Shown here piece by piece: positions 2,197-59,378 of a stretch of DNA of 64,000 nt. This stretch comes from Vicia villosa. Its lineage: Eukaryota > Streptophyta > Magnoliopsida > Fabales > Fabaceae. Both the position numbers and the translations under genes were made by a program. The notes under the pieces are model-generated. The model had not been told where the DNA came from and made no database searches. It worked only from the letters and a program-made list of their open reading frames with translations. Position 1 is the first letter of the stretch. The number at the start of each line of letters is the position of its first letter. The stretch is taken from the NCBI RefSeq assembly GCF_029867415.1, contig NC_081180.1:150217068-150281067 (forward strand). Direction: 5' to 3'.

Positions 2197-3698
2197 TGTG
2201 TTTTTTGCTTGTTAACTTCAATCTTTCATATCTTTTGACTCGTAACTCCGATTTGCACGTTCTTTATATCGTTGGAAAGCTTGTGAAATGTGCTATCTCA
2301 TGAAATGATTGATATTGATTGATTTTAGTTTATTCATGTGTGTTTTCCCTTTGACATTTGTTTTCCATTTCGTGTTTGTGTTAATCGTTCATTTTCTCTT
2401 AGCTTATAATGCAATAACGCAATTCCGATTGCGATGTTTGTTATCTCTAACTTGTGTGCTAGTGTGCAAGGCTTTTGGATAGTCACCGATCGATGCTTAC
2501 TCTATGAGTGTTCCGCTTTACTTGTGGGACACGATTTTCATTCATTCTCTTTGCGTTCTCATCCTGGAGACACACCCCTATTACTTTATATCTGCTTGCT
2601 TGGTTTGCTTGTTCCTCTTGCAGGTGTATTGTGATTATGCTCGACGCGCATGTCGACCTTTGTGTGCTTTCATGGCTAATCGGTGTGCTGACTATTTTCT
2701 TTTGCTTTGCTAGCTCGCTCGCGGGATCCTAGTTTCATTGCTCTCTTCGCTATAGTTTATGGATCATCATCTGTTTGGTATTGATCCCGTTTCATTTTAT
2801 TTTTCTCGCACTTTACCGCTTTCTCGCATCATCCTATAACATGAGAAGTAGGACCTAAGCATGCATTCGGCCAAGACCTCGAAAGAGGCTCTGTTTTTGT
2901 TGGTGTGTTTACATTTGTGCTTTGCGGCAGGGAGTCACGGTGTAATAAGTCCTATACGGCACTCCGTTAAGTCCTCATGGAAGGCATGCGGAAAGGGTTA
3001 GCAATCAACCCCCGCCTAGTCTCATCGAGTCCGTTTGGTATGCGCACGCTACACGTTGCTCGCTTCTGAACCTGCACAAGATCTTGTTATCGAGTATGTC
3101 AGGAAAAGGGTTCATGTAACCGGACCCCCGCCTTTCTTATAGCTCGTGTCGCTCGACGTTGATGCTCGGTGTACGCGCGCACCGTTTTCCTTTACGATCC
3201 GTGACGGCCTGGTTGCTGAGAGGGAATCGCTCCTCTTGTCTATGGCCCGATCATTTTCGCGAGGTCTAATGCTTGGTTGACTTGGGTTGAGCTGCTCCCC
3301 TTGGCTATGGCGGGACCGCCTTTTCTACCATTCAGTCAGTACCGTTGGTTTTGTTTACTTTACGAGCGGAGCTCGTTTGTGTGATATTATTGTTTGCTTC
3401 CCCTTTTTTCCTATAGGTTGTTAGCTTAGCTTAGACTGGTACCCTTTGTATGCTAACATTAGGTAGCAAGCTTTCCCCCCTTAGCTTAGGTTTTCCTCAT
3501 GCATTCTTTAAAACACAAACCACAGTCTTTGATTTTCTTTTCTTAAGAGCTTGTTATTTCCGCTCCATTCCCAAGCATAAGCCTCCAAAGGTCGAGCAGC
3601 GGAGTGTGAATGTAACTCGTTCACCTAAAAAACACAAAACAAACAGAAACTAGTTAGCCGAGCTACGGTAGCTCTGATTCTGCAAAACAGATACGTAG

Positions 3699-3864
3699 GC
3701 AGCGGGGTAGGGCCCGTGCGAGCACAATCCTTTCTTTTCCCTACATTCTGCATTCATTTTAGTCCAGATTAGCGTAGTTTGCTTACACACCCATAGGTTG
3801 AGACATAAGCGTGGATACCATCGAGTACGATGGGCGCGAGGGGTGCTAACACCTTCCCCTCGCG
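3699..3864 (+). other. Predicted structured RNA module: three hairpins near the LTR 3' end
   Basis: Hairpin III (3699-3719) pairs gcagcggg with cccgtgc, with one bulged base. Hairpin I (3818-3833) has a perfect 6-bp stem, ccatcg with cgatgg, closed by an agta loop. Hairpin II (3835-3864) has a perfect 9-bp stem, cgcgagggg with cccctcgcg, closed by tgctaacacctt. The same layout with different stem sequences occurs in the Ogre LTRs (28537-28584, 11045-11092) and the gag-only element (47222-47270). A worn version lies at 59172-59220. Confidence 0.6.
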
Positions 3865-3992
3865 TAACCGACTCCCTTACCCTTTTTCTCTGGTCGTGAG
3901 ACCGTTGTTTTGTTTTGTGGTTTGCTGGCATTCCCTTCCTTTTCAGGATAAATATGTTAGTGGCGACTCTGTTAATTTTCGCGGTAGCGACA

Positions 3993-5681
3993 CCATGTTG
4001 ACATTATGTTCAACCTTCAGTGCATCTAAGCCTGCCTGTACCATAAGTTTTACAAATTCAAAACGAATGCCAACAGAAAGTTCAGGAGAATTGGTTTTGA
4101 ATCTGGTGGTTGAAGAGTCTGGGTTAAGAATGAAATAGGGTTCAGGTTCTCTTGAGAACAAAGCACAGGTGAAAGAAGAGGATAGGGAGGATGAAGAATT
4201 GGCTGTGGAGGTGGTTGAGGGATCAATTAAAGGTGAGATTGCAGAAGGAATGGATGTGGTTGAGAATAAATTTTCAGAGGGGATTTGAGGAAAAACAACA
4301 TTTAAAGGTTGGGGGTCAAGAGTTGGTAGTGAATGGAGTCTTTTAGAGGTGGTGGAAGAGGATGGAAGATCAGAAGAAGGTGGTCTTTTCTGAGGGGAAG
4401 GGTCAGAGGTAGACTGTAAACTAGAAGTGTCTACATTATTAATTTCCTCAATGAGCTTCTGAAGCTGTTCAGAAGTTCTGGGTATTTTCAGGGATTCTGT
4501 TGATATTTGTTCAGAATTAGTATTATTAGGTACAGAACCAGAGATAGCAATACCAGAAGACTTCTTCTGCTTCTTTGCTTTCTTAGCATCAGGTCCTTCT
4601 CCTGTGACCTTTCTTTTCAGCTTCTTATCTTTCTTCTTCTTATCCTTCTTCCTTAACTCATCCAGAGATGGAAGAGTTCTTCCACGAATCCAAGCAGGAT
4701 CAACAGTAGATTGTGCTTTAACACAAGATTTCAGATAGCGTTTAACAGATTTTTCTAGCTCCTCTTGAACATATGAGAGAAACTCACAAGAGGAGTTCTT
4801 CTAGTCAGAAAATCTGGAAACCTTTTTGGAGGAGTGGTCACCTTTTCAATCAACTGCATCCTTCTTAGAGACTGAGCAGTTAGAATACTCCCACGAATAG
4901 CAGTCAGATTCTGAGAAGAGCCAGCAGCTCTCAGAGTATCTATCAAACCACTCTCAGTCAGAATATTTGATATCATTCTTCCAAAAGGAATAGTATTCTT
5001 CTTAAGCTTGGGATTCTTCAGACGTTCTTCTTCCCTTGATTCTTCAACATTTGTCTTCAGATGTTGAAACAGAATATGTGGTAGATTGACTCTCATGCCT
5101 TTTCCAATGCAGAACAAGACATACTTCTGATCTTGATTGACGTAGGTAGCAGAGTTTGTTGGTTTTCTGTGATAGATAGATCCTAGAATGATCTTTGCCC
5201 ATACTCTGTAGGAAGGCTTCAAGTCAGTAGTGTAGGGAGAGGCAATTCCAAAAGTAAACAACTCTGGGTCAACTTTTTCCCAATCAGTTCTGCCTGGTAG
5301 AGCTTCAGTAATTCCACCTATACCATCCAGATTGTACATTTTCCTTATCAGCTTCTCAGTCACAACAACTTCATGCCCTAACACGAAGGAAATGATAGCA
5401 GTTGAAGTAATAGTGGCATGTGTCCAGAATTCCTTAACCAAAGTAGGGTAAACTGATCCAATCAACCGTTCAAAGAAGTTTGTCCATCCTTGTACTAGCA
5501 TTCCAGTTTTGATTTTAAAATCATGAGCCATAAGATTTTCAAAATCCACCATAGTTTCATAGAGAACCTCTAGTTCGTCATAAGGAATCAAACAAGTCTT
5601 CAAAGGAGTGTTTGCGGATTTCTTTTGTTGAACTTGGTTTGAAGATGAGACCTTGCGTTGAACATTTGACGAAGAAGCCAT
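3993..5681 (-). pseudogene. Envelope-like ORF of the SIRE element, frameshifted and truncated
   Basis: The ATG at 5681 opens a 308-codon frame ending at 4755. The central part (about residues 30-180) resembles the plant-transposon domain found in SIRE and Athila envelope-like ORFs, with blocks such as FFERLIGSVYP and EFWTHATITST. Near 4790 a frame change occurs. The other frame continues as protein-like sequence, very Lys-rich around 4580-4680 and Ser/Thr/Pro-rich at 4150-4450, down to 3993. There it is cut by the Tat LTR. The basic tract could be a nuclear localisation signal. No convincing signal peptide or transmembrane helix is visible in the 308-codon part, so true envelope function is doubtful. 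The function of this family is not established. Confidence 0.75.
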
Positions 5682-11044: not shown

Positions 11045-11092
11045 ATACGAAGGGAAGGTATTAGCACCCAACGTATCTATAGTACTCTATAG
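11045..11092 (-). other. Tat LTR double hairpin, Ogre 3' LTR copy (hairpin III at 11291-11310)
   Basis: On the minus strand hairpin I (11092-11077) pairs CTATAG with CTATAG around an AGTA loop. Hairpin II (11076-11045) pairs ATACG with CGTAT and GGG with CCC across a T-T internal loop, capped by TGCTAATACCTT. The bulged hairpin III (GCACAAGG with CCTTGGC) is at 11310-11291. See 28537-28584 for the other LTR. Confidence 0.6.
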
Positions 11093-11530
11093 GTTTCTTT
11101 GCTTTGTTTTTCATTCCATGTTGTTGAGAGGTTCTTGTGAAATAGGTGGGACCTAAGGTGTTTGTTTGATTATGCTCGCAAAGATCATCGCGATCCTCTG
11201 CATACATATCCCTTAGAGGGAATCAGAGCATCTGTAGCTCGGGGTCTACGGGTGCTAAGGTTTGAGTAGTTTTTTTGTTTTGTTTTGCTCGCCAAGGATC
11301 GACCTTGTGCCTACGTATTCTCAAAGGGATGTTGAGAAAGTCAGAGCAATCGTAGTTCCCACTTATGCTAGTGGAAGCAAAGGAAAAGAGACAAATGTCA
11401 TCTAAATGTTCGATGTATCTAATCTATATCATCACATACATCTGTTTGATTTTGTTTGAAAATCTTTTCATTATAAGCCCTAGGCCATGCCACTTAGGGT
11501 GCTTAGAATGATAAAGATGTTTTTGTTGTT

Positions 11531-23200: not shown

Positions 23201-25663
23201 TTAATCCAAGACCTTCATCAGGGCTTCCCTGTGGGCTTCTGAGTTTAACAGTAATGAAAGTATTGAGATCTTTGAAGGAGTCTGCATAAGCTGATCCACA
23301 ATCTTGTATTCACTTCTTTTGATAAGCTTCAAAATTTCATCAAAATCAGGATTGACATTGGTTCCACTGGACTGACCAACATCAGTGTTTGTATTACTGA
23401 CAGGAGTTTCCACAGGATTTCCCACTGGTGTATTAACAGGATTTTGTCCGGTTGCAGGAGCAACAGGTTGCTTTGGAGGTAGTGGAGTATACACACGTCC
23501 ACTTCTTGTTACTCGACTCACATCAGCGATGTTCACGACAGATGAAAGAGTTGGTAAAGGAACTTCTTGTCCATCCTTTATCATTGTTGCATTGTAATTG
23601 TATGGAACTGCCTTGTCAGAGTCATAAGGAACAGGTCCAGGTAGACAAATGATCAAAGGAGCAATAGGAACCCTTGGCTTGTTGTAGGTAACTTCTATAC
23701 GCTCAGGCATGTTGAAATGAGGAATGATGACGTTAACTGTAGGCATTTCCGAGTTGATATCTGAGACTAAAAGCTCATGCGGATAACATCCTATCATGTT
23801 AACTTCATTTTCATCCCTATTTCTGTAGATCTGAATAGTACCATTATCCAACAGCACTTGGAGATCTCTTCTCACAATCGAACATCCATGAGGATCTACA
23901 CAACATATGCTACAAGAACCATATTGATGCTGGCGAAAACTCGGCCCTCGACAGAGAGTGGCGTGCATTTTTACCAAATCTGCTCTTGAGTAATTGATAT
24001 TATAGACTCGGTATGGACCAGGACATCCATACACCATGTTCACAACATGCCCTCCATGATTGGGCAGCGGATTTGCTTGCACATTAGGATTCAAATTTCT
24101 GAAAGAGAGGAGATTAGATCTAACCAACCTCTGAACTTCATATTTCAAAGCTATGCAATGCTCAAGATCATGGCCAGGTGCTCCTTGATGATAAGGGCAT
24201 GAGACCTCAGCTTTGTACCACCATGGGAGTTTCTCAGGTACGGGTGGTGGTGCTCTAGTTTGAACGAGACCTTTTTCAATCAAAGCAGGGTACAATTCTG
24301 TGTAGGTCATTGGAATCGGATCGAACTGTGGAGCTCTTTGCACACGATTCTGATTATTGTTAAACTGTTGAGCCTGTTGTCGAGGCTGTTGTTGCTGAAA
24401 CTGCGGGGTAAATCCCGGATTTGGTGCTGTGTTAACGACTGGTGTGACAGCAGCAATCTGTCGTTGTCGATTGACGTTTCCTCTTGGCTTTCCTTGGGAT
24501 ACCATGTCAACACTTTGTTCTTTCTTCTTTGGGAAACCACTTCCGAACTTTTTGGTTCCACTCGAAGATCCACCTTCTTTAGTCAGACGTCCGGTTCGGA
24601 CTCCTTCTTCTAGACGCATCCCCATGTTTACCATTTCGGTGAAATCACTTGGAGCACTAGCAATCATGCGTTCATAATAAAACGGACTGAGAGTATTCAA
24701 GAAGATCTTTGTCATTTCTTTCTCTTTTAACGGTGGATTAATCTGAGCAGCAGTTTCTCTCCATCGTTGGGCATATTCTTTGAAAGCTTCATGATCTTTC
24801 TGAGCCATGGATCGAAGCTGGTCTCTGTCTGGAGCCATATCCGAGTTATACTTGTATTGTCGGACAAAGGCCTCACCTAGGTCATTGAAAGTCCGAATAT
24901 TGGTGCTATCCAGACCTGTGTACCACTTCAGTGCGGCGCTAGTCAAACTGTCTTGAAAGTAATGGATGAGCAACTGATGATTATCTGCATAAGTAGACAT
25001 TTTTCTGGCATACATCACAAGATGACTTTGTGGACAAGAACTACCTTTGTACTTTTCAAAGTCAGGGACCTTGAATTTAGCTGGTATTTGTACACTGGGA
25101 ACTAAGCATAGCTCCTGGGCATTCTTTCCAAACAAATCTTTCCCACGAATAGCCTTGACTTCCAATTGAATCTTGTTGAACTGTTCTTGGAGATCTTCCA
25201 CAAGATTACGCGGATTTGTGCTATCACCTTGATCATGATAAATCTCATTGCCATCATAAGGAACAGTGTGAACCGTAGGGGTCGGAACTGTCATAGTGGG
25301 TTGAGAAAGTGCCATAGTGACTTGAGAAAAAGTTACCCCCTGATTTGGAGTGAACTGTGAACTTTGTGCAGCAGGCGCTTCAGTTGTGGATGTTTGAACC
25401 CCAGAAACATTATGGCGGAAACCTGTACCGAAGCTGAAAGGCGGGCCCCAACCTTCTGGCATGGAGAAAGATGGAATGCTGAATGCAACCGTAGAAACTG
25501 GAGTAGTGACTTCAGATGTTACCGTTGCTTGACTGTTGGGTGGTAGCGGCTGATTCTGTGCGGCCATCAAGGAGTCGACCAGAGTAGTGAGACTTTCCAA
25601 CTTTTCCTGAAGGGTGGTCACCGTACCACGGAGCTCAATATTCTCTTGTTCAGAGTGTTCCAT
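23201..25663 (-). CDS. gag: Ogre gag (nucleocapsid/capsid polyprotein)
   Basis: There are 820 codons from the ATG at 25663 to the TAA at 23201. An N-terminal coiled-coil-like stretch (residues 1-40, LxxLVDSL heptads) precedes a Pro/Thr/Gln-rich region. The capsid-type gag core (about 195-370) includes FKVPDFEKYKG, ALKWYTGL and AFKEYAQRWRETAAQI. A basic Gln-rich region and a zinc-finger-like C-x2-H-x5-H-x4-C (CPYHQGAPGHDLEHC, residues 489-503) follow. The protein would form the virus-like particle and package element RNA. It is homologous to the gag at 48529-50037. Codons just upstream of the ATG also look homologous to that element (see the entry for 25664-26000). Confidence 0.93.
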   Translation of the reverse strand: MEHSEQENIELRGTVTTLQEKLESLTTLVDSLMAAQNQPLPPNSQATVTSEVTTPVSTVAFSIPSFSMPEGWGPPFSFGTGFRHNVSGVQTSTTEAPAAQSSQFTPNQGVTFSQVTMALSQPTMTVPTPTVHTVPYDGNEIYHDQGDSTNPRNLVEDLQEQFNKIQLEVKAIRGKDLFGKNAQELCLVPSVQIPAKFKVPDFEKYKGSSCPQSHLVMYARKMSTYADNHQLLIHYFQDSLTSAALKWYTGLDSTNIRTFNDLGEAFVRQYKYNSDMAPDRDQLRSMAQKDHEAFKEYAQRWRETAAQINPPLKEKEMTKIFLNTLSPFYYERMIASAPSDFTEMVNMGMRLEEGVRTGRLTKEGGSSSGTKKFGSGFPKKKEQSVDMVSQGKPRGNVNRQRQIAAVTPVVNTAPNPGFTPQFQQQQPRQQAQQFNNNQNRVQRAPQFDPIPMTYTELYPALIEKGLVQTRAPPPVPEKLPWWYKAEVSCPYHQGAPGHDLEHCIALKYEVQRLVRSNLLSFRNLNPNVQANPLPNHGGHVVNMVYGCPGPYRVYNINYSRADLVKMHATLCRGPSFRQHQYGSCSICCVDPHGCSIVRRDLQVLLDNGTIQIYRNRDENEVNMIGCYPHELLVSDINSEMPTVNVIIPHFNMPERIEVTYNKPRVPIAPLIICLPGPVPYDSDKAVPYNYNATMIKDGQEVPLPTLSSVVNIADVSRVTRSGRVYTPLPPKQPVAPATGQNPVNTPVGNPVETPVSNTNTDVGQSSGTNVNPDFDEILKLIKRSEYKIVDQLMQTPSKISILSLLLNSEAHREALMKVLD

Positions 25664-26000: not shown

Positions 26001-27530
26001 CTAAACGTCTTCATCAGACGAAGAACCAAATGCATTGTGCAGCTTGAGCTTCAGGATTTCTTTCCCATAGTAAGCTTTCAACTTGGCCTTTTCAGCTCTC
26101 AGCTTGTCAACCACATTCTTCCAATTGTCAGGTATCGGAGCGTTGCTTGTTGAGCCTTCAAGCTTTTTCTTGCTTTCTTTGATGTATCTTCTGATTGCGG
26201 CATCTTTCCGACGGATCTTCTCATCTTTGTTCATGAGCCATCCATCCTGATAATAGAGAGTTTCTTCATGTTCTTTCACTTGTTTCTTCAACTTTCTATT
26301 TTCCACATCAGTTCTTCGAAACTTTTCTTCCCAAGCGTCTTTTTCTATCCTCATCTTGGTCAAAGTGTCTTGGTATTCCTCCATAGCGGGAATGTTGGGT
26401 CGTTGAGGTACCACAGGGAACATGGGTTTTTCATAATCATAAGGCATTTGAAACTCCTTTGCTCTTTTCTTCACCCAGCAGGTGTAGGCGTTCGTAGCAA
26501 TGCAGTTCCTTATCTCACCTTTTTCTTTCCATCGGATGTCGTACCAGGCTTTCACCATTTTTGTTTTCAACCCTTGAGGATCATTTCCTTCCTGATAGAA
26601 GTAGCTTTCCACTGTAGGGCCAATGGGTTTAGTTGAATTTGCATACCCGAGTTGTCGTCGGGCTAGGACCGGATTGTAGTTAATTCCTCCTTGTGTACCA
26701 ATGAGGGGTACGTTGGCGAATTCTCCACAACTTTCAATGGTTTCTGTACCGCAGCGAGCCAAGGTATACCACTGAATATCATTATTAGTAAGAGACATAA
26801 GTCTTTGAGACCAACGTAAACCCTCCCGGTTTTCCGTGAAAATGGGAGACTTAGGTAAGTGTGAAACAATCCATTTAAACAACAGAGGTGCACAACATAC
26901 AATAATTCCACCACCTTGGTGATTCCTATGATGGACAGAGAAATACATGTCACCAAGCAGAGTCGGAACGGGATTTCCATTCAAAAAGACCTTTATGGCA
27001 TTGATATCAACAAAGTCGTCGATATTGGGAAACAGAACCAACCCATAGATGAGCAAGGCTAGTACAGCTTCAAAAGCTATCATGCTACCAGTCTCAATGA
27101 AATCAAAGGCTCTCTTTATTAGAAACTGTGAAGGCAAACCTGGAAGGTTTCCTTTGGTAGTCCAATTACTCTCTATTTCAGATTTCTTCAAGTGGGTACC
27201 TGTTGCAATGACTGGTGACTTAGGAATGGCTTCCAAACCATTGAAAGGTATTTTGTCAGACACAGGAATACCCAAAAGATTGGCATATTCTTCCAAGGTT
27301 GGTACCAACTGATAGTCTGGAAAGGTAAAACACCAGTAGACGGGATCATAAAACTGAACCAGAGTTTTGAGAAGTCCTTCATCAACATGAGTGTTCAAGA
27401 TAGGCAAAAGCTTTCCATGGCTTTTCCTAAAATCAGAAGGATCTTGTACAAAAGACGCTAACTCTTTCAGTCTTTCCACATTAGGCTCTTTGAAACCGTA
27501 CCTCTTGGTATGCCTTTTTACCCACTCCAT
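26001..27530 (-). CDS. Ogre ORF1 protein (unknown function, plant-mobile-domain-like)
   Basis: There are 509 codons with an ATG at 27530. The first 340 residues resemble the ORF1 protein typical of Ogre elements and the plant mobile-domain-type families of transposon-derived proteins: VYWCFTFPDYQLVPTLEEYA and LLGIPVSDKIPF near residues 70-95, then LALLIYGLVLFPNIDDFVD near 160. The C-terminal part (about 385-500) is rich in Lys and Glu with heptad spacing and is probably a coiled coil. It ends in the acidic SSSDEDV. The frame has no stop or frameshift, consistent with a young copy. The function is not known; a role in RNP assembly or host interaction is only a guess. Confidence 0.88.
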   Translation of the reverse strand: MEWVKRHTKRYGFKEPNVERLKELASFVQDPSDFRKSHGKLLPILNTHVDEGLLKTLVQFYDPVYWCFTFPDYQLVPTLEEYANLLGIPVSDKIPFNGLEAIPKSPVIATGTHLKKSEIESNWTTKGNLPGLPSQFLIKRAFDFIETGSMIAFEAVLALLIYGLVLFPNIDDFVDINAIKVFLNGNPVPTLLGDMYFSVHHRNHQGGGIIVCCAPLLFKWIVSHLPKSPIFTENREGLRWSQRLMSLTNNDIQWYTLARCGTETIESCGEFANVPLIGTQGGINYNPVLARRQLGYANSTKPIGPTVESYFYQEGNDPQGLKTKMVKAWYDIRWKEKGEIRNCIATNAYTCWVKKRAKEFQMPYDYEKPMFPVVPQRPNIPAMEEYQDTLTKMRIEKDAWEEKFRRTDVENRKLKKQVKEHEETLYYQDGWLMNKDEKIRRKDAAIRRYIKESKKKLEGSTSNAPIPDNWKNVVDKLRAEKAKLKAYYGKEILKLKLHNAFGSSSDEDV

Positions 27531-28340
27531 AACCTAATCCTATAATGTTTGCAAAGAAAATTCTCTAATTGTTTGGAAAAAATCATGTTTTTATGGAAAA
27601 AGATTTTTATTTTTTTATTTTTTATGGATGTATGAATGCATGGATGCATGGATGCCACATATTCAAACATGGTAAAGCGAACATGGTAACGCAAACATGG
27701 TACTGTAAACATGGCAACACAAACATGGTAACACAAACATGGTACACACAGGTTCAAAGGTCCAGCGTCACGAGCATGAGGTCAGAGAACCAAACATGGG
27801 ATAGTTCTAGTTAATCACCTGTACAACATGTTCTACTGATACGTCAGAGTCTACATTTTTCTTTCGGATATTACCGGCTTTCCACAATTAAACTCATGAG
27901 CCAGCAATATTCTCAAGAAAAACTCGTCTGAGTGTGGTTCTCCGCATGACAACTAATCCAAGTCTTCACCTGAATAGTTTCTGCACCACAACCTAATAAG
28001 GCCAGGATGGGTTGGGGTTCTACAGCCAACTCAGCTTCTACAGTTCAATGAAAGCAACAATGTCTTCGCAATTAACTCGCTAAACATATATTACAAACAA
28101 GGAACCTCCACTGAGCGGAAGGATTCTCACGTGCGCCTGCACATGACTATACCCTCCACCTAATTCTTATGTGTACTTAATCCGGGTTAGGATTTGTCCA
28201 TAATGTATCACTTGTCACAGAACCACAGATGTAACAGAACCAAAGAACCAAACAAGAACAAAATAAAAACAAAACAAATAGAAATAACCCTTTCTTTGGA
28301 AACAATAAAAAGATGGTCCCCAGTGAAGTCGCCATTTTTC
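27531..28340 (-). other. Ogre 5' leader: primer-binding site, untranslated region, 14-15-base repeats
   Basis: The primer-binding site (minus TGGCGACTTCACTGGGGACC, plus 28315-28334) starts six bases after the LTR. Ogre primer sites have been assigned to tRNA-Arg; I could not check this. About 780 bases of untranslated leader follow. At 27665-27750 six units of 14 to 15 bases contain acatggta or a close variant, e.g. aacatggtaacacaa. No gene is visible. Confidence 0.8.
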
Positions 28341-28536
28341 TGTCGCGGGCGAAAAATCGTTTTGTTCCTCTTTTTTGTGGGATGAGACACCTGATGCCTT
28401 CTTTGGGCTCGAGTGCTCAAAAATGATTTTTCTTTTGTTTCGACCAAACTTTTTATTATTTCCAAAGTAGGAAAAGGAAAAAAGCTGCAATAACCTAAAA
28501 GTGGGGGGGAGAGATCTTTGGGTAAGAGGGTTGGTT

Positions 28537-28584
28537 ATACGAAGGGAAGGTATTAGCACCCAACGTATCTATAGTACTCTATAG
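28537..28584 (-). other. Tat LTR double hairpin, Ogre 5' LTR copy (hairpin III at 28783-28802)
   Basis: Hairpin I occupies 28584-28569 (CTATAG, loop AGTA, CTATAG). Hairpin II follows with no gap at 28568-28537 (ATACG and GGG arms, loop TGCTAATACCTT). In the Ogre transcript this lies about 200 to 245 bases before the end of U5, just upstream of the primer-binding site. Stem bases differ from those of the other Tat elements here while the loops match. Confidence 0.6.
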
Positions 28585-30710
28585 GTTTCTTTGCTTTGTT
28601 TTTCATTCCATGTTGTTGAGAGGTTCTTGTGAAATAGGTGGGACCTAAGGTGTTTGTTTGATTATGCTCGCAAAGATCATCGCGATCCTCTGCATACATA
28701 TCCCTTAGAGGGAATCAGAGCATCTGTAGCTCGGGGTCTACGGGTGCTAAGGTTTGAGTGGTTTTTTTGTTTTGTTTTGCTCGCCAAGGATCGACCTTGT
28801 GCCTACGTATTCTCAAAGGGATGTTGAGAAAGTCAGAGCAATCGTAGTTCCCACTTATGCTAGTGGAAGCAAAGGAAAAGAGACAAATGTCATCTAAATG
28901 TTCGATGTATCTAATCTATATCATCACATACATCTGTTTGATTTTGTTTGAAAATCTTTTCATTATAAGCCCTGGGCCATGCCACTTAGGGTGCTTAGAA
29001 TGATAAAGATGTTTTTGTTGTTTAACCAGCCTTGTGGCAAAAACTTTCAATGAAGTCAGCCTTGTGACAAAAAGTTTTGATTAATCAGCCAGCCTTGTGG
29101 CAAAAGTTTCAATGAAGTCAGCCTTGTGACAAAAACTTTGATTAATCATCCAGTACGGTGGTAAAACGGTTTGATTGATTAGCCAGCCTTGTGGCAAAAG
29201 AAATTTGATTGATTAGCCAGCCTTGTGGCAAAAAAGTTTGATTGATTGATTGTTTGTGATGATATAGAAGAGATACTCCTATCATAGAGATGAAAAATGT
29301 CTAATCTCCTAGGGTATTTGATTTGGATATTGGGGATGCTTATAAGAAGCCCGTGGGTCCTTGTACGAAGCCCAAGAGGAGGCTATCCGAGGGTCCTTGC
29401 ATTGTAAGCCCAAGAGGAGGCTATGGGAGGGACAATCCAGGGTCCTTGCATTGGAAGCCCAAGAGGAGGCTATGGGAGGGTCACTCGTTTGTACAAAGCC
29501 CAAGGGGAGGCATGGTATAGTTGGTTTGAGCTCTTAGAGCGATTTCACCGGGAAACCATACTCTATGTCCTAACCTAAACTAGGGAGATTCTTTGCACGA
29601 AGCCCAATAGGAGGCTATGGGGAACCTAGTGTTGTACTAAGTTGAACAAGTATATATAACACAAACACACATATGAACAAGTACGAACAAATATGAACAA
29701 GTACATGAACAGATATGAACAGTTATACATATATGACAAAGTGTGTGTATATAATGGAGTTTATGAAGGAAATATACCTGTAAGCATGATCCATTTGTAT
29801 ACACAGGGGCTCGGGACTTATACTCGAGGAGAAGTCCACTTGAATTTATTCAAAGCTATGTAAACAGGTATTTACAAAGGGGCTTGGGACTTATACCTAC
29901 ATGGAGGCCCATGGTATTTTTGGGAAGATTTAAAGAAACCTTCATTTTTGGTTTGTTATTCAAAGCTAAAAAACAAACTGATCGAGGTATGTACAAAAAA
30001 GTGTGTGTACAATGAAATACCGAATTTCATGTACAGGAATGGGTATGTACAAAAGGGGCTTGGGACTTATACCTACGTGGAGGCCCATGGTATATTTGAA
30101 AAGTTTTGTTTCTTTGAAGTTTGGTTGTTTTGAAAATGATTTGAAAATTGTTTGAAAAGATTTTATTTTGAAGAAGTTTTATTGTTTTGAAAAAAAACTG
30201 TACAAAAGGAAAAGAAATGGGACTTACACTCTCTAATATTCGAGAGGCCCCACATCGTTTTGAAAATCAATTGATCAATTAAAAAAGATTTAATCAATAG
30301 TTTCAAAAAGAAATGGTTTATTGTTTTGAAAAGAATGATCGTTTGTTTTAAAACAATTTGAATTTGACAAAAGTCAACTTAATTAAGTAAAAATCAAATT
30401 TTAATGCTTAATTAAGACCTAAGTGATTAGGGTTTGATCACAAAAAATATTTACAAGTGATTAGGTTAAGAATCAAATGAAAAACAATATTTTAAAGTAT
30501 TAAAAAACACTTAAAACATGTCATTTTAAACCTATTTAAAAATGTATTAAATAAATCTTTTTTGATGATTTCTTTTTGTATTCATAAAATATGTATATTA
30601 AACAAAGAGTATGCAAAAAATGAAGTGAAAATAATGAATTTTGATTGGTTAAATTAATTGGTGAAGTTGTTAAAGAAAATGAAAGAAAATAGTGTCAAAA
30701 AAAAAGTTTT

Positions 30711-30785: not shown

Positions 30786-33324
30786 TTGTTATTCACATGC
30801 TTTCATTTAATTATATTTGAAAACAAACATTTGAATTTTTCAAACCAAAAAACGCGCCAAGAACACACCTTCAACTGATTTTTGAAAATCTTTGAAACTG
30901 GATTGTTTTGATCAAGTAGATAGTCTATCTTGCTCGGTTTTGGACGAGGAACACAATGGTATCATTTAATTGCATTTATTTTCACTCTAAGATCATTGGT
31001 TTTCTGATGAACACGAAGAACCCTAATCTTATGATTCAATCTGAAATTGTGTATAATTGATGAATTGTGAAATTGATTGAGGGCTATTGATCAGTGATAG
31101 TGCAGAAACAAGATAGCAACTCAATTTTTCATTTATGATGCATGTATGTATGAGTTTGAAGTTCATAGCACTTACCTTCAAAAACGGCCAAGCTGGGATT
31201 CGAATTCTGCAATAGAGGTGTTACAGAAGTTGTTTGATGATCTGGATAGCTTCAATGGACCATATGGAAGGTGTCTGGATGCTTGGAGTGGATTGAAAAC
31301 ATCTGGATCAGTTGGTGGAACCCGATCTGCAGTTGCTTCAAGTATGAATCGAGCTTGGTGATTCTGAAGTTTTTGATTGATGATGAGTGTTGGGATAGTT
31401 CATATGTGATATATATGAGGTGTTGGAAGTGTTAGTTTGGACAGATATAGCTTGGTATGGATTTTGGCATGATAAGGTTCAATATATGCAAACATGGAAG
31501 TGAGGTAGTGATTTTGAGTTTTGAGGTGTTTTTGGGTGTATGAGTGATTCAAACACATCCCATATGGTGTTTATGGTTTGCTAGAATCATCATTTTGGCC
31601 ATAGCTTCAAGGATTTGGAGGTTGACATTTCTACCTCTTTGAAACTTAAGAAACTTGCATTCTAAGAAAGAAGAGAGAAAACCTATAATTGTGAGGTTTT
31701 GGTGTGAATTGAAGAGTGATTTGCACCTCTATTTATAGGCCAAGAGTTCTGAACTCAGACCTTTGCAAGTTGATCAAGAATTGGTGATTTGGCTTAAGAG
31801 ATAAAAAGGAATCTTTTACATTTAATGCAAAATGGTTAAAGTGACCAAACCATGGTTAAAACTCAAGCTTCTTATCCTCTTCCATTCTGATCTCAAATCA
31901 GAAAAATATCTCCAATTATTGCCTCTATGCATCATTATTTGGATCATTTGGCAAATTGGCTCATAACTTAGTGAAAATGGCATGAAATTTCAAGTGAAAA
32001 GTTCACTAATGTCAAAATTCAAAACCATAGCTACACTTCAAATTTTTTCATGCTCTTGGACATTTTGGAAAGCTCATGTTACACACTTCAAAACCCTAGT
32101 TGAAAGTTTCTTCAAGATCTTTAAGGAAGTGGGTGAAAAAGATCCATGAACTTTGAGAAAAATGAAGTTTTAAGTGAAGTTTTCAAAAAGTACCAACTTT
32201 GAAGCTCCATATCTCTTAAATGGTTGATCTTATGGAAAAAAATTATATGTGTCAAAGTTGTTCATTGGATCAAAATCTACAACTTTCATGTTGGAAGTTT
32301 TTTTCAGTTTGTAGGTGAAATTTTGAGTTATTCCCTTCCAAAGTTTGAAAAAAACCATGAAAAACACTTAGAAATTTTTCTAAATATGGAAAGTCAAACT
32401 TTTGACTTTTTGATTCTTGATTGATTTTCTTGATTCTTCTTAATCAAATGACTTCATATATCATATATTGATGATTCAAAACTTAAAAAGTCATGGTTGA
32501 CCAAAATTCCCCAAAAGTCAATGGTGATCTTGTACAGTTGACTTTTTCAGACGAATCGCGTTTCTGGAGATTTCAAATGAAACAGGCTATCCTCATCAAA
32601 TGAATGGTATGAATGGATCATATTGAGGTATTGGAGGATATTGAATCATAGTTTGATTTGTGACAACTTGTCCTGATTAAAAAGTCAGTTATTCAGTGAA
32701 TTAGGTCAAAAACCCTAATTGTCGACCTGATGAAATTGATGACTGTGGATCTTGAATTGAGATGTAATTTCCATTGGATGTTGTCATAGGGATTATTTAA
32801 AGATGATTGAAACCTTTGATTGACTTCCTGGGGATTTTTAGGGTTTCCCAAATGTGATTCCTGATTTTGGTCCCTGATAGTTCAAAACCCTAATCTGATG
32901 ATTTGAAATTTCACTGTTGATCAATCCTTGTGTAGGAGATGTCTTGAGCCAATAGATTAGGTCAAAATGATGCACTTGGGGTCTTGAGGTCATGTCCCAA
33001 GTCATTAGGTCAAATCCTGAGCAAAAGTCAGGGGTATGCTATCTTCAGTCAAAACCCTAATCTGGTTGATTCAAAGCCTTTGAGCTTGTTGAAATGAATC
33101 TCTGAAGACCAAATGTTGATTGTTGATGAAGATGATTCATTTGAAATGAAGGGAGAACAAAACCCTAATTGATTGTTACTTGTACTGACGAGTGATTTCC
33201 TGATCAAATCCTGCTGAGTCACAAGTAACAAACACAGGCTATGCAATTTGTTAGAGATGCAAATGATGCATATGCAATGATATGAGGTGGTATCTTAGGT
33301 CAAAAATTGGGGTATGACAGCGGT

Positions 33325-44072: not shown

Positions 44073-44157
44073 TTTATCTCTCTATTTTGCTCATTCATTC
44101 CTTCAACATGTCTTTGATTGATCTTTTTTGCATTTAAGTCTTTTAAATGTGTAGTAC
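44073..44157 (+). mobile_element. Short piece of the host copia element between two insertions
   Basis: These 85 bases lie between the Tekay LTR and the gag-only Tat element. The last five, agtac (44153-44157), are the TSD of the latter, and the sequence is continued at 56162. No domain can be read in it. Confidence 0.6.
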
Positions 44158-44420
44158 TGTCATACCCCAATTTTTGACCCTAAGATCACACATCATTTGC
44201 ATTCAATCGTCAATCAAGAGCACCATTGTGAAGCTTTATCTTTGATACTGTGATTATCTCTGAGGGGAATTATCGAGCATTTATAGCATTTTTATTTGTT
44301 TATACTAACCAAAAAAAAATCAAAAATATATGTTTTGTCTCTTTTGTTTATATTTTACAGGTGAAAGATCGGGCAAAAATCAAAACAGTGCAAGAAAACA
44401 GTTTTTGAAAATTTGAAGGT

Positions 44421-44456
44421 GGAAATCGATTTACCCCTGTGGGAAATCGATTTCCT
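44421..44456 (+). repeat. Paired GGAAATCGATTT palindromes in U3
   Basis: ggaaatcgatttacc, then cctgtg, then ggaaatcgatttcc: two near-perfect palindromes about 20 bases apart. The same pair recurs twice downstream of the TATA box at 45177-45289, once inverted. The 3' LTR copy is at 53140-53175. Confidence 0.8.
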
Positions 44457-44682
44457 GTGCGCAAAATTCAAAAAAATAAGGGAAGCTTGACATCATTTTG
44501 GCACCTTTTTATTTAATCATTTTATCAATTTTCCACCTCATCAAAATTAACTCATTCATTAAACCCTCTTTAATCTCATTTTACCATTTTTACCATTTAA
44601 ATTGCCACTTTAATCACCAATTAAACACAAGTTAATCACCAAACACAAAAAGACCAATTTGCCACTACTCTTGCTCCAATTC

Positions 44683-44690
44683 TATAAATA
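44683..44690 (+). promoter_or_regulatory. TATA box of the gag-only element (also 53405-53412)
   Basis: tataaata is followed by gagccctctactctctc, a plausible CT-rich initiator. It is the same in both LTRs. Confidence 0.65.
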
Positions 44691-45176
44691 GAGCCCTCTA
44701 CTCTCTCATTTCTCAAGCTTTTGATAGCCAAAAAAGTTCTTGCAAATTCATTTCTCAAGCTTTGAGAGCCAAAAAACCCCTTGCAATTTCTCTCCTCATC
44801 CTTACCAAATTCACCAAAGCTCTTTTTCTTTCATAAAGTTTGTGAGTCACATCTTGAACCTCACAAACTTTGAGCTAAACCACCATCCATTTCACTCTTT
44901 TTCTTCAATTGTTGAGAGATCAAGATTTGTGTTGGTGATTCTTGAAGTAGATCTAAGTTTTGTTCAAGATTTGGTAATTTTCTTCATCCTTTTTCATCTA
45001 TCATAATGTGATTCTTTTGTGCTTGTGTGTGATGCATCTTTGATGCTATATTGGTCCTATTTGATGGTGAATTGATGGAAAATTCGTGCTCCAATTGATG
45101 TGTGATCATAAGGTGTTTGTATGTTTGCTTAAGTCAAGTTTTATGCCTCCTAATGCTGATTTTTTGAATGCTGCGT

Positions 45177-45289
45177 GCAGGAAATCGATTTCCCTCTGTA
45201 GGAAATCGATTTCCACCTTATTTTTTTTTTTAAATTTGAACTCTGCACTCAGGAAATCGATTTCCTACAGAGGTAAATCGATTTCCTGC
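45177..45289 (+). repeat. 38-bp inverted repeat built from four ATCGAT palindromes
   Basis: The arm at 45177-45214 is the reverse complement of 45252-45289 with one mismatch, around a 37-base spacer. Each arm itself contains two aaatcgattt palindromes. As RNA it could fold as one long stem or as four short hairpins. It is conserved in the 3' LTR at 53899-53936 and 53973-54010. Confidence 0.85.
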
Positions 45290-45349
45290 TGACAGAATGT
45301 GTTTTTTTGCCTTTTTTATGCTTGTTTTTGCTTCTTACTTCATCCACTT

Positions 45350-45553
45350 CATTAATATCATTGGATCTAGGATGTTGATAGGTTTGAAATGACCTAATCC
45401 ATAATATTAGATGAATGATATTAATGATAGTGTGAGTTGATTATCTTTTGTGAATTTTATTCTTATTCCTCCATTTCATTAATATCATTGGATCTAGGAT
45501 GTTGATAGGTTTGAAAGAACCAAATCCATAATATTAGATGAATGATATTAATG
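45350..45553 (+). repeat. Tandemly duplicated 77-base hairpin in R/U5
   Basis: Each unit starts cattaatatcattggatcta and ends tagatgaatgatattaatg, which are nearly complementary ends. The units lie at 45350-45426 and 45477-45553, a 127-base period. The 3' LTR has both at 54071-54147 and 54198-54274. Confidence 0.8.
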
Positions 45554-47129
45554 ATAGTGTGAGTTGATTATCTTTATGCATTTTATCTTCTCCTTCTCCT
45601 TTTTTTCTTTTGATCGATGAAAGTCTTAATACTTTGAGAATTCTTATGGATTCTTAGTAAAGACTAGATCGTTACCTATTTTCTTTTCGTGCGGTATTGC
45701 TTTCGGAAGGCGATCTATATATCGTTCTTCTCGCATGCATTAGCACATAAAGTTTTGACCGGCCTCGTTGTAGGGTGATTTCTACATAAATCACTTGGCG
45801 ATCTGCTTAACATAGCGCAATATTTCGTGTCCCGAATAAAAAGATCCAATATGGAAGAGAATTGTATGCGGTTGATTTAAGACTTGTGGAGGTTTTTATC
45901 GTGTAGTCGCTATGATTCTATCAAGCTTCTGATAAACCCCATTGAATTTAAATCCGAGTACATCATTCACTCACCATAGATCTTCCTACTAACTTTGATA
46001 ACATACTTGACAAGTTTCAAGATGGTTATCTTTAACACTTAACAACTAACTTTAATTTCCGCACCTTTACTATACCGCTCTTTATATTACCGCTCTTTAT
46101 ATTTCTCGCTTTATCGCTTTACTTTATCATTTCATCATATTTACTTTCCGTCATTTTCTCTTTGTCCACTTGGACATATGTTTATGCTTCCGTTATTTTT
46201 TCTTTTGTCCACTTGGACCATACTTTACTTTTTCGCTAAAACACTAATAAATAACCAAAATCTAAAAAATACATAAGGTTCTCTTTGGACTATCGGTTAC
46301 TATCCCTAGCGCTTTGGAGATTCGGACTTATGGACCTAGTACCTCTGGACTCATTCTATTACTATCCTGTGATTGTTCTGTCTGTCTGGCATTGTTCTGT
46401 TGTATGTTTATGTGTGCAGGTATTTCCTTGAAAGCCCTTGATGGTTAATTCCAAGGCATTGATATAAGGATTTTACCCGAAAACAGCCGTTACTCTGCCC
46501 AATTTTCGTCAGAATTTTAATGTGCTTAATACAAAGTGGCGCTAAGACAATAAGTTCATCTGGATCCCCAAGTGTTAATGTGTTGGTATTGATAAGTCCA
46601 AAGGATGGGAAAACTACCTTGATTCTTAATGTCAAGTGTTGGCTTCTTAATTTGGTTAGACCGTTTCTTTCTTTAACTTTTATTTTATGCACTAGGTTAG
46701 CCTCTTCATCTCCTTCCACTTCTTAGATTTTCAAAATCTTCTTCCTTTTTACAAAACCTTCTTATGTTTGCAAATCTTTTCAAAACTTTTTTTTCTTAAA
46801 AATATCTTTCGCCCTTAGTGGCTTTTCTTCAAAAGTTTAGACACCGTTAATTGTCGAAACGAGTGGTTATACCCCACGATTTTGAAATTGATTGATAATA
46901 ACAAGATCTTTTCCGCGTGAGAGAGCTAGTGGCATACTCGTTGATTTTATCCGAGTTGGAGCCCTTCTTTCATTTGCGATGCAAAGAACTTGTTTGTTCT
47001 CATGCTCAAAATCAATGGCTGAGTATTTCTCTCTAACGACAACAAAGTGTTTATTCGTTTTAAAAACGTTTTTCCCAAAAGCGGAACTACATTAGCTCTG
47101 ACTTCTCCATTGCACTGAGGAGGTATGTA

Positions 47130-47270
47130 GGCACAAGGCTTAATGTCTTGCCGAGCTTATTTTAAAAATAACACAAACTCTCTTTTTTTAGCACACACGA
47201 CACTGATTTTCAAAAAGGTTCCCGTGGAGTACCACGGATATGAGGGGTGCTTTAAACCTTCCCCTCATAT
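47130..47270 (+). other. Tat LTR hairpin module, gag-only element
   Basis: Hairpin III (47130-47152) pairs ggc-a-caag with cttgcc with one bulged a. Hairpin I (47222-47237) has ccgtgg, loop agta, ccacgg. Hairpin II (47238-47270) has a perfect 10-bp stem, atatgagggg with cccctcatat, loop tgctttaaacctt. In the 3' LTR (55943-55991) one base of stem I changed from c to t, turning a C-G pair into a T-G wobble and keeping the stem. Confidence 0.6.
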
Positions 47271-47435
47271 AATCAACACCCGAACCTGAGTTCTCTTTCT
47301 TGTTTTAAAAACAAAACTTTGGGTTTTACGTTCTTTTCCCTTTTCCTTTGAAAAAATAAAGCGCGGTGGTGATTTCAAACGAAATATTGATTCGAGTCAA
47401 TCCCATGGCTTCGATATCAGATTTTCCCCGCTACA

Positions 47436-48528
47436 GAAAAATGGCGACTTCACTGGGGACCCAGTTTTAAGTGTGTTAAGCCTATTTTTGTTTATCTTTG
47501 TGTTTTTATATGTATATATTGCTGTGTGCTTTGTTTGTTTATTTTCTTTTTTCTTTTTGGTGCTCGATGGTTCCTCTGTGATGAGATAAAGTTCTAACCC
47601 GAACTTTGGTGAGTAACTTGAGATAGGAGGTGGTAAGACCAATAGTTGCATGTCAGGAGCAATCCTTAACATGAGCATCATATGGTGGAACCCCAATCAG
47701 TGGAGGCCTCATGGAAGGTAGTAGAGGTTGTTACGAATCATCGTGATAACGCTATTACTTTCAATAGTGAGTGTCCGTAGAAGCTGAATGACCTAGAACC
47801 CTTTTAACCCATCTAAGCCTTTTTAGGATGTAGTGCAGAAACAAGATCAAGTACCAATTTGAGCTTGTTGTCATGCGATACTACGCTCAGACGAGGTCTT
47901 TTTAGGCATATTATTGGCGCCCATGAGCAATTGTGCGTGCCGGTAGTATCCGATAGAAGATTGAAAACTCTGGGAACCTTTGTAGAACCCGTTCGGCAGG
48001 TACAAAACTCCCTAGTACATACCTTTGTGGGTGGTTCTTAACTTTGACTCCATGCTCGTGACGTCGAACCTTTGAACTTTATTTGTGCGGCCATGTGTGA
48101 TCTTGATTGTGATTGATGCATAAACCATTCATCCATGCATTCATTTGATTTCCAAGGAACTCATAGGTCTTTCTTTGTAAACATCATAAGTTTCATCAAA
48201 CTCAATGGATCTTGGGTGTTGATGGGGTGAAAACTCTAATCCACCAAAATGGATGATTGATCTTGATGATAACTTGATCAAAGCTTTGATCCAATGTAGG
48301 ATTTACCTCCTTCATGTTTTGATGTTTACAAAGTAATAACTTGAATTCTTTGAAAATCAAATAAATAAATAAAAACAAAAAAAAAACAGCAATTGCATCA
48401 TTTGCATACATACATCCAGGTTGCCCAAGAAACTTATCCTTGCCTGTCTCCATCTTCAGAGTTGTCTGTCTACTGCCAAGCTGATTCCTCCACACAAGTA
48501 CGGAACTAGAGCTGCTGTTAGACAAAGA
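47436..48528 (+). other. Leader of the gag-only element with primer-binding site
   Basis: The primer-binding site tggcgacttcactggggacc lies at 47442-47461, identical to that of the Ogre. About 1.06 kb of untranslated leader follows. No ORF1 is present, unlike the Ogre. Just upstream of the gag ATG the gag frame is open from at least 48421 and encodes HKYGTRAAVRQR, similar to the Ogre pre-gag segment. Confidence 0.85.
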
Positions 48529-55800: not shown

Positions 55801-56156
55801 AGCGGAACTACATTAGCTCTGACTTCTCCATTGCACTGAGGAGGTATGTAGGCACAAGGCTTAATGTCTTGCCGAGCTTATTTTAAAAATAACACAAACT
55901 CTCTTTTTTTAGCACACACGACACTGATTTTCAAAAAGGTTCTCGTGGAGTACCACGGATATGAGGGGTGCTTTAAACCTTCCCCTCATATAATTAACAC
56001 CCGAACCTGAGTTCTCTTTCTTGTTTTAAAAACAAAACTTTGGGTTTTACGTTCTTTTCCCTTTTCCTTTGAAAAAATAAAGCGCGGTGGCGATTTCAAA
56101 CGAAATATTGATTCGAGTCATTCCCATGGCTTCGATATCAGATTTTCCCCGCTACA
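52877..56156 (+). repeat. 3' LTR of the gag-only Tat element
   Basis: It has 3280 bases, tgtcatacccc to ccgctaca, followed by the TSD agtac. It differs from the 5' LTR by about 17 substitutions and two small indels (for example three extra bases near 53200). Internal features mirror 44158-47435. Confidence 0.93.
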
Positions 56157-58448: not shown

Positions 58449-59378
58449 TACACTTTGTTCAAAATAATTATCGTATATCCGCCGAAAATACATAAGTAAA
58501 CATGGAATAAAAAGGACAATTAGAAGCACATCCTTTTGTTACAAACGCTTACTCGTATTACGCAAATATTTTTCATAAACCCAGTGTGGATGAGAAAGGA
58601 AAATTGGATGCATATTCTTTTGAAATCTCAGATAAACGAGCGTAAGGTACACACTTTGTTCAAACAGTTACTTGTATTTTGCTTACAAATAATCTAACCA
58701 ATCAAACCTATTCTTTTTCCGCCTTAGCGCAAATCTAAAACCTTTTCACAAAGAACATGTTTATACATTCTATCACAATACAAATAAACACTTAAGCCTC
58801 CCATGCACGAGCATACAAGCAACATTTAACTGCTAGAATATGATACAAGCATATCCATTCTACTGCAATACAAACCAACCCTTAAGCCTCCCACACGCGA
58901 GCACACAAGCAATATTTAACTGCTAGAATACGATCTAAACATTGTTCATTAAAATCAACTAACACGTAGTTCTTTTCTACTAAGAACTACGCAGTCTTGA
59001 GTTCTTCATTGCACCAGAGGATACGTAGGAGCGAGATCCAATATTTCGTCAGACACCTTAATAAAAAAACTATTTTTTAGTCTTCTGCTTCTTTTTACAA
59101 TAATGCATAATAATCAGAAGGAAACGAATAACATCAGTCTAACATTCTTTCACAAAACTAAATAAATGGTTCTCGTTGAATACATGGATGTGAAGAGTGT
59201 TAATACATTCCCCTTGCATAACTGACTCCTGAATCCTAATTTGGTTACGACGACCATTTTTTTTCTTTTTAGAGTTTTATCTATAATTTTCCTTTCCTTT
59301 TAAAATAAATAAACTTCGGTGACAACTCTGTTGTATTTTGAGTGTTCCTTACCCTTGAAGATTTTTCACACCGCGACA
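58449..59378 (+). mobile_element. Decayed Tat-lineage LTR fragment
   Basis: The 3' half carries the Tat LTR landmarks in worn form: ggatacgtagg (59019-59029), hairpin-like ctcgttgaatacatgg with gtgttaatacattcccc (59172-59212), actgactcctgaatcc, and an end at ccgcgaca (59378). Upstream, a unit of about 95 bases with cttaagcctccca...taactgctagaata is duplicated (58791-58930). The phrase cacactttgttcaaa also recurs (58450 and 58651). No gene is present. Confidence 0.6.

Follow-up and report, generated by a model that had tools for sequence, protein, structure and literature searches.

A covarying sense-strand RNA domain near the 3' end of Tat/Ogre-type LTRs

We are highly confident that the LTRs of Tat/Ogre-type elements in the genome analysed here keep an RNA domain near their 3' end, in which pairing on the sense strand is conserved while the letters change. 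The analysis started from one stretch of DNA of 64,000 nucleotides, in the following called the window, for which two abutting hairpins had been put forward as a selected RNA structure. This original prediction is strongly supported by covariation, by held-out loci and by a sense-strand G-U bias. The conserved domain turned out to be larger than the double hairpin (module Y), as a second covarying module upstream (module X) had been missed. Together, X and Y make up a cis-acting RNA structure of an LTR retroelement, an architecture for which we could not find a description in Rfam or in the open-licence literature.

Host elements and modules in the window

Four LTR pairs were found in the window by self-comparison (Table 1). 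Element A contains DUF7745, gag, a weak protease match, RT, RNase H, a second RNase H and integrase. The Pfam order is RVT_1, RT_RNaseH, RVT_3, Integrase_H2C2 and rve, with the second RNase H between RT-RNase H and integrase, which is the Ogre/Retand arrangement of the Tat clade as given in PMC6317226. The DUF7745 ORF at 26001-27530 (-) precedes gag at 23201-25663 (-). An ORF upstream of gag is what we take to mark Ogre, and with the second RNase H and the extra ORF both present, element A fits the Tat clade, Ogre lineage.

The inside of element B has 43% identity over 560 residues to the gag of element A, and no match to the pol or protease of element A was found in the same tblastn search. 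Having gag only, element B looks non-autonomous. Given that its LTRs are nevertheless ~99.4% identical, the factors that read its signals probably act in trans. Element B (44157-56156) thus looks like a recently mobile non-autonomous element. Element C is split by element A and has the primer site TGGCGCCGTTGTCGGGG, which we take to be Athila-like.

The covariance models of X and Y match LTR F1, elements A and B and one remnant at 58984-59239 in the window, and the LTRs of elements C and D gave no match to either model. Like element B, F1 and the other genomic loci are putative members of the Tat clade, in their case from LTR motifs and primer site only. Little else aligns between these LTRs in blastn at an E-value up to 0.01. 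For A and B, the shared parts are their first 40 bases, one X, and Y; for A and the F1 stretch, Y is the only one; and no alignment was obtained between B and F1.

Table 1. Positions of the elements, modules and LTR signals in the window.
Feature	Position	Strand	Remark
Element A, LTR pair	10850-15827/28341-33320	-	self-comparison
Element B, LTR pair	44157-47435/52876-56156	+	self-comparison
Element C, LTR pair	7107-8525/34990-36420		self-comparison
Element D, LTR pair	40304-41441/61634-62714		self-comparison
Module X, LTR F1	3660..3732	+	
Module X copy 1, 5' LTR of A	28770..28850	-	
Module X copy 2, 5' LTR of A	28657..28732	-	
Module X copy 1, 3' LTR of A	11278..11358	-	
Module X copy 2, 3' LTR of A	11165..11240	-	
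Module X, 5' LTR of B	47084..47165	+	
Module X, 3' LTR of B	55805..55886	+	R2 match
Module X, diverged, LTR remnant inside D	58984..59063	+	P2 is GTCT/AGAC
Module Y, LTR F1	3818..3865	+	stem I 3818-3823/3828-3833, stem II 3834-3843/3856-3865
Module Y, 5' LTR of A (Ogre)	28537..28584	-	fold, covariance-model match
Module Y, 3' LTR of A	11045..11092	-	pattern, covariance-model match
Module Y, 5' LTR of B	47222..47270	+	fold, covariance-model match
Module Y, 3' LTR of B	55943..55991	+	C-to-T wobble at 55943; covariance-model match
Module Y, diverged, LTR remnant inside D	59170..59239	+	covariance-model match
TATA box CTATAAATA, 5' LTR of A	31730..31738	-	
TATA box CTATAAATA, 5' LTR of B	44682..44690	+	
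AATAAA after Y, 5' LTR of A	28452..28457	-	
AATAAA after Y, 5' LTR of B	47355..47360	+	
Poly(A)-signal-like GATAAA after Y, LTR F1	3947..3952	+	
Short hairpin before poly(A) signal, LTR F1	3937-3948 and equivalents		resembles poly(A) hairpin
TGGCGACTCTG, copy of primer-binding-site start inside LTR F1	3961..3971	+	
Primer-binding site of A	28315..28335	-	
Primer-binding site of B	47441..47461	+	

Module Y was found at every window site originally given for it, and the double hairpins in F1, in both LTRs of element B and in the 5' LTR of element A are present as described. A further copy lies in the other LTR of element A, and the diverged copy in the remnant, absent from the original prediction, was matched by the covariance model with an E-value of 5.9e-12. 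The C-to-T change in element B, said to keep pairing as a wobble, is real. Other details needed adjustment. Loop I, stated to be always AGTA, reads AAAA, ATAA or AATA in other copies; the matching loops hold for most of loop II, but its middle varies too; and stem II of the family at 28569 does pair, but with two T-T mismatches. The fold energies of four window copies of Y gave z-scores of -5.24, -5.92, -4.31 and -2.47 (200 shuffles each), and the loop pattern of Y has 3 matches in the window where 0 are expected (100 shuffles).

Module X has the consensus CTAC..GCTCTGA..ATACGTAGGCA..GCGAGC. Its helices are P1 (CTACG/CGTAG), P2 (GCTC/GAGC) and the hairpins P3 and P4. P1 and P2 would cross, so that X is likely a pseudoknot over a three-way junction. 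Of four window copies of X folded singly, two have notable energies (z-scores -2.86 and -2.30) and two are unremarkable (-0.84 and -0.20), the method being blind to pseudoknots. Pairing between the X and Y loops was checked by eye and is not consistent.

Occurrence in the genome and covariation

A pattern anchored on the loops of Y (GAGTA..GGGTGCT..ACCTTCCC) has 15,727 matches in the window's own 2.03 Gb genome, and the reversed control has 0. Because this search depends on the loops, the primer-binding site was used as an independent anchor instead. It has 2,822 matches in the genome, from which the first 30 and 40 of the other 70 listed places were taken as the sample. Using covariance model R1, Y was detected in 67 of the 70 loci (29/30 and 38/40), upstream of the primer site and on the same strand; one locus (L060) has an extra copy of Y downstream of it. 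Among the three misses, L045 and L088 are interrupted by an insertion inside Y, and L107 is without Y. L107 has no match to X by model R2 either, and its LTR seems to stop ~60 nt past a TATA-like box, as would be the case if it lacked R.

The core pattern of X was found within 420 nt upstream of Y in 107 of 111 sites, once in 85 of them and twice in 22. L102, with a weak Y match in the set of 40 loci, was left out of these 111 sites, since an insertion has taken the place of its left half. Among the four sites without the X core, L103 has only 389 bases upstream, and L043, L048 and L076 also have no R2 match, so X is not needed everywhere. These three belong to the CCATGG family, in which Y is kept and loop I reads AAAA or ATAA.

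In 26 distinct copies of Y, 96.4% of the cells are paired, compared to 85.3% in shuffles. The covariation score is 0.453 versus 0.236 in shuffles, none of 500 reaching it, and it falls to 0.02-0.19 when the partner is slid. In the same copies, pairs changed on both sides do not exceed the shuffles (7 versus 6.5), and additional pair types are fewer than in shuffles (15 versus 19.5). A second test took the tree into account. It was run on 53 distinct copies, with structure left out of the alignment, using a script of ours modelled on R-scape in place of R-scape itself, where substitutions were reshuffled on the tree for 300 nulls. The top five of 2,145 column pairs all fall in stems I and II, and three have an E-value below 0.05 (3819-3832, 3835-3864 and 3822-3829), followed by 0.11 and 1.2 for the fourth and fifth. 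Significant covarying pairs, the outcome that the original prediction had asked for, are thus present in both stems. A double compensatory change within one family was seen in L038, from CTATAG/CTATAG to CTGTAG/CTACAG.

For a held-out set, 20 loci were picked on sight of only half of each stem, together with the leading CCC of the second half of stem II. Stem I is paired in 96/120 cells against a permuted mean of 79.4, and stem II in 177/200 against 162.7; none of 10,000 permutations was as good. As the underlying search was for an unusual loop-closing base, decayed copies are probably overrepresented among these loci.

For module X, the statistics are based on 35 sequences picked from 46 listed, where L070 was dropped because its register differs, giving 32 distinct rows of 34 kept. 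One gap column was shifted by script in rows reading TGAT. The best six of 2,016 column pairs are in P4, P3 and P1, and four of them have an E-value of 0.003 or less. With the uncorrected alignment of 64 rows, P1 and two P4 pairs are on top (E-values 0.003, 0.013 and 0.40) and a non-structural pair is fourth. The predicted three-way junction has significant pairs in P1, P3 and P4, and the closing helix P2, paired in 146/156 cells of the 32 rows, is nearly invariant with no significant covarying pair, so that the crossing of P1 and P2 rests on few changes. Variants of P2 that still pair are GTCT/AGAC in the window remnant, ACTC/GAGT in L027 and, by eye, GACT/AGTC in L070.

In total, 826/847 cells of Y and 608/632 cells of X are paired. 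G-U pairs number 81 in Y and 36 in X, versus 4 A-C mismatches in each. As G-U is tolerated and the complementary A-C hardly, selection acts on the sense RNA. The stems of Y have a mean entropy of 0.69 bit, the columns of loop I 0-0.54 bit, and those of loop II 0-0.14 bit in nine of twelve and 0.9-1.43 bit in the remaining three. The loops are therefore held tighter than the stems, though not absolutely, and do not vary as freely as the stems do.

Position within the LTR

The original prediction placed the double hairpin in U5. This is probably wrong, as four families have TATA boxes 2.5-4.2 kb further upstream, and in most families Y is followed by a poly(A) signal. The CTATAAATAGAG boxes are at 31738 and 14245 (-) in element A and at 44682 and 53404 (+) in element B, with 3,158 nt and 2,544 nt, respectively, from TATA box to Y. 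In the CTGTAG family the box lies 4,512 nt before the primer site (L131), and in an F1-like copy 2,479 nt before Y (L133); the stretch upstream of L132 gave no clear answer. No such box was found in the ~1.5 kb examined of 29 first primer-site loci (the interrupted L045 aside).

The first AATAAA or GATAAA is 119-147 nt from the start of the Y match in the surveyed families, with the CTGTAG and CCGTAG families as exceptions. Most copies of these either lack the strict signal within 420 nt or have their first one at 197-198 nt, and a signal at 157-160 nt occurs in some copies only, or with AATAAG allowed. As the CTGTAG family is abundant, the argument from constant spacing is weaker than the other families suggest. 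The distance from Y to the primer-binding site is 181-312 nt wherever this site was found within 420 nt, and nothing in the analysis singles out the primer site.

A predicted TATA start upstream and a poly(A) signal downstream would place X and Y in R and not in U5. If these motifs are used, both modules seem to be near both ends of the genomic RNA. Directly before the AATAAA, or overlapping its start, a short hairpin of changing sequence was found in 25 of 28 distinct segments (minimum-energy fold, without shuffled control). A third hairpin, GGTC/GACC, was seen by eye after Y in some families only.

Possible function and relation to known structures

The domain is ordered as one or two copies of X, then Y, usually a short hairpin, and then the poly(A) signal, where X would consist of two hairpins inside a junction with helix P1 crossing the closing helix P2. 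Judged from the motifs, transcription would start from the TATA box 2.5-4.2 kb upstream and end past the poly(A) signal, leaving the domain in R and near both ends of the genomic RNA. The nearly constant loops may be read by a host factor and not by the fast-changing Gag. Near the 3' end, the domain would then direct 3'-end formation and/or nuclear export of unspliced genomic RNA, like retroviral transport elements. For this explanation as a whole we estimate a probability of somewhat below 0.4, and we give about one chance in three to the function itself, a signal read by a host factor for 3'-end handling or for the export of unspliced RNA.

We lean towards a host-read signal, just ahead of packaging or dimerisation, because of the poly(A) spacing in most families, the hairpin before the signal, the sharing of loops despite Gag divergence, and the introns reported for Ogre. 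The loops AGTA and TGCT..ACCTT are common to elements A and B, with Gag only 43% identical. Ogre RNA is reported to contain functional introns (PMC12786077), and mouse musD has structured transport elements that include a pseudoknot (PMC12786077 and PMC5767303). The likeness to the musD RNA transport element and other export elements is that of a pseudoknotted RNA in an LTR element with a role in export. However, musD and its kin are animal elements with a different fold, whereas X-Y is inside the LTR of plant Ty3/gypsy elements and its export role is putative.

Packaging or dimerisation would be just as compatible with the copy of the domain at the 5' end. Gag might bind the domain, or the domain might pair with another genome copy, near the primer site, and thereby serve packaging, dimerisation, priming or strand transfer. 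This is a possible but somewhat unlikely alternative. The 181-312 nt between Y and the primer-binding site are compatible with it, as is the gag-only element B, which is probably served in trans, and one family has a palindromic 12-base stretch across loop II; most other compared families are without this palindrome. According to PMC5767303, the Ty1 RNA has a pseudoknot near its dimerisation and primer sites that is needed for transposition. X-Y resembles Ty1 in having a pseudoknot near the primer site of an LTR retrotransposon RNA, but Ty1 is from yeast, no shared sequence or helix order is shown, and X-Y also adjoins the poly(A) signal. Against packaging, most families, though not all, show more variation in the distance from Y to the primer site than in that to the poly(A) signal, and the loop letters are near-constant between elements A and B in spite of the divergence in Gag.

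The adjacent hairpins of HIV-1 R (TAR and the poly(A) hairpin), one of them with the poly(A) signal, are likewise found at both RNA ends according to PMC2645353. In comparison, the R predicted here is 2.5-4 kb and has the extra module X. We know of no Tat-like activator for the plant X-Y elements.

The flaviviral exonuclease-resistant RNA and the HDV ribozyme have the strand order a-b-[hairpin]-a'-[hairpin]-b'. We take the strand order of X to equal that of the flaviviral RNAs, and X might accordingly act as an exonuclease stop: a decapped leader of ~3 kb would be degraded 5' to 3' up to X, leaving a short effective R from X to the poly(A) site. We consider this improbable. The presumed topology, the doubling of X in 22/111 sites and the length of the predicted R are in its favour, but the letters differ, X has no Rfam match, P2 is nearly invariant with the crossing resting on few changes, and the CCATGG family is without X. 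By eye, no consistent partner was seen for a second pseudoknot from an X hairpin loop to the 3' side. In an extended form, which we regard as quite improbable, X, sometimes in tandem, would define the working R of the retrotransposon, the trimmed RNA with X, Y and the poly(A) signal would be the form used for reverse transcription, and Y would mark or fold the short R. The lost 5' part would then be recovered from the 3' LTR, so that giant LTRs would cost little.

The HDV ribozyme presumably has the same strand order as X, and an HDV-like ribozyme was rejected: the would-be catalytic joint is paired in P2 of the 58984 copy (GTCT/AGAC), and no conserved pyrimidine was seen in loop 3 by eye. The likeness of X to both RNAs lies in the strand order.

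A DNA-level palindrome without an RNA role, either a binding site or an insertion target, is very improbable: some families have a stem I that forms a short palindrome, and a junction falls inside Y in 3/70 primer-site loci, but a DNA palindrome would not predict that G-U is tolerated and A-C hardly. Shared ancestry without selection on pairing is just as hard to accept, since, although all copies are probably from one lineage, the LTRs of A and B share only the three short stretches given above (blastn, E-value up to 0.01) and the tree-preserving nulls are exceeded.

No match of any kind at the Rfam gathering score was found in the whole 64-kb window. At E-values up to 10, the regions 28330-28900 and 3600-4010 gave only matches far below gathering, on the strand opposite X and Y. 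A Y pattern and an X pattern had 0 matches in a viral collection. A bacterial genome collection gave 2 matches, below the ~12 estimated by chance and with no hairpin by eye. The X-Y structure is undescribed in the open-licence literature as searched by title or abstract start. Structured RNA in plant LTRs is also known from the hammerheads of retrozymes (PMC4918200 and PMC9695139), from which the window differs in having no Rfam match at gathering scores. The non-coding motifs of Sirevirus are, like X-Y, kept in otherwise diverged plant LTR elements. However, according to PMC2829016, these Ty1/copia motifs comprise palindromic DNA repeats that precede the TATA box, together with polypurine copies, unlike covarying RNA near the poly(A) signal.

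We found no comparable cis-acting RNA structure described for plant Ty3/gypsy elements in the open-licence literature, and these elements make up much of many plant genomes. Since X-Y is short, has more than 15,000 loop-pattern matches in one genome and covaries across families, it is directly probeable. It can serve as a marker to locate the ends of Tat LTRs as well as sub-elements, and offers a way to study how elements whose LTRs measure several kb define R, export unspliced RNA or package RNA.

An insertion junction inside the double hairpin was seen in 3 of the 70 primer-site loci (L045, L088 and L102), a possible hot spot.

LTR sequence derived from tRNA, as described for Helenus (PMC10886601), was rejected on an ARAGORN search of the window, which found no tRNA gene. 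In 16 of 28 distinct segments, the start of the primer site, TGGCGACT (or TGGTGACT), is repeated inside the LTR 12-17 nt past the poly(A) signal. Besides F1, the copy is present in L006, L009, L020, L022, L033-L036, L043, L048, L068, L070, L076, L079 and L086. The 12 segments without it are from family A, the CTGTAG family and the window remnant. The copy might serve as another annealing site for tRNA or mark a former LTR end.
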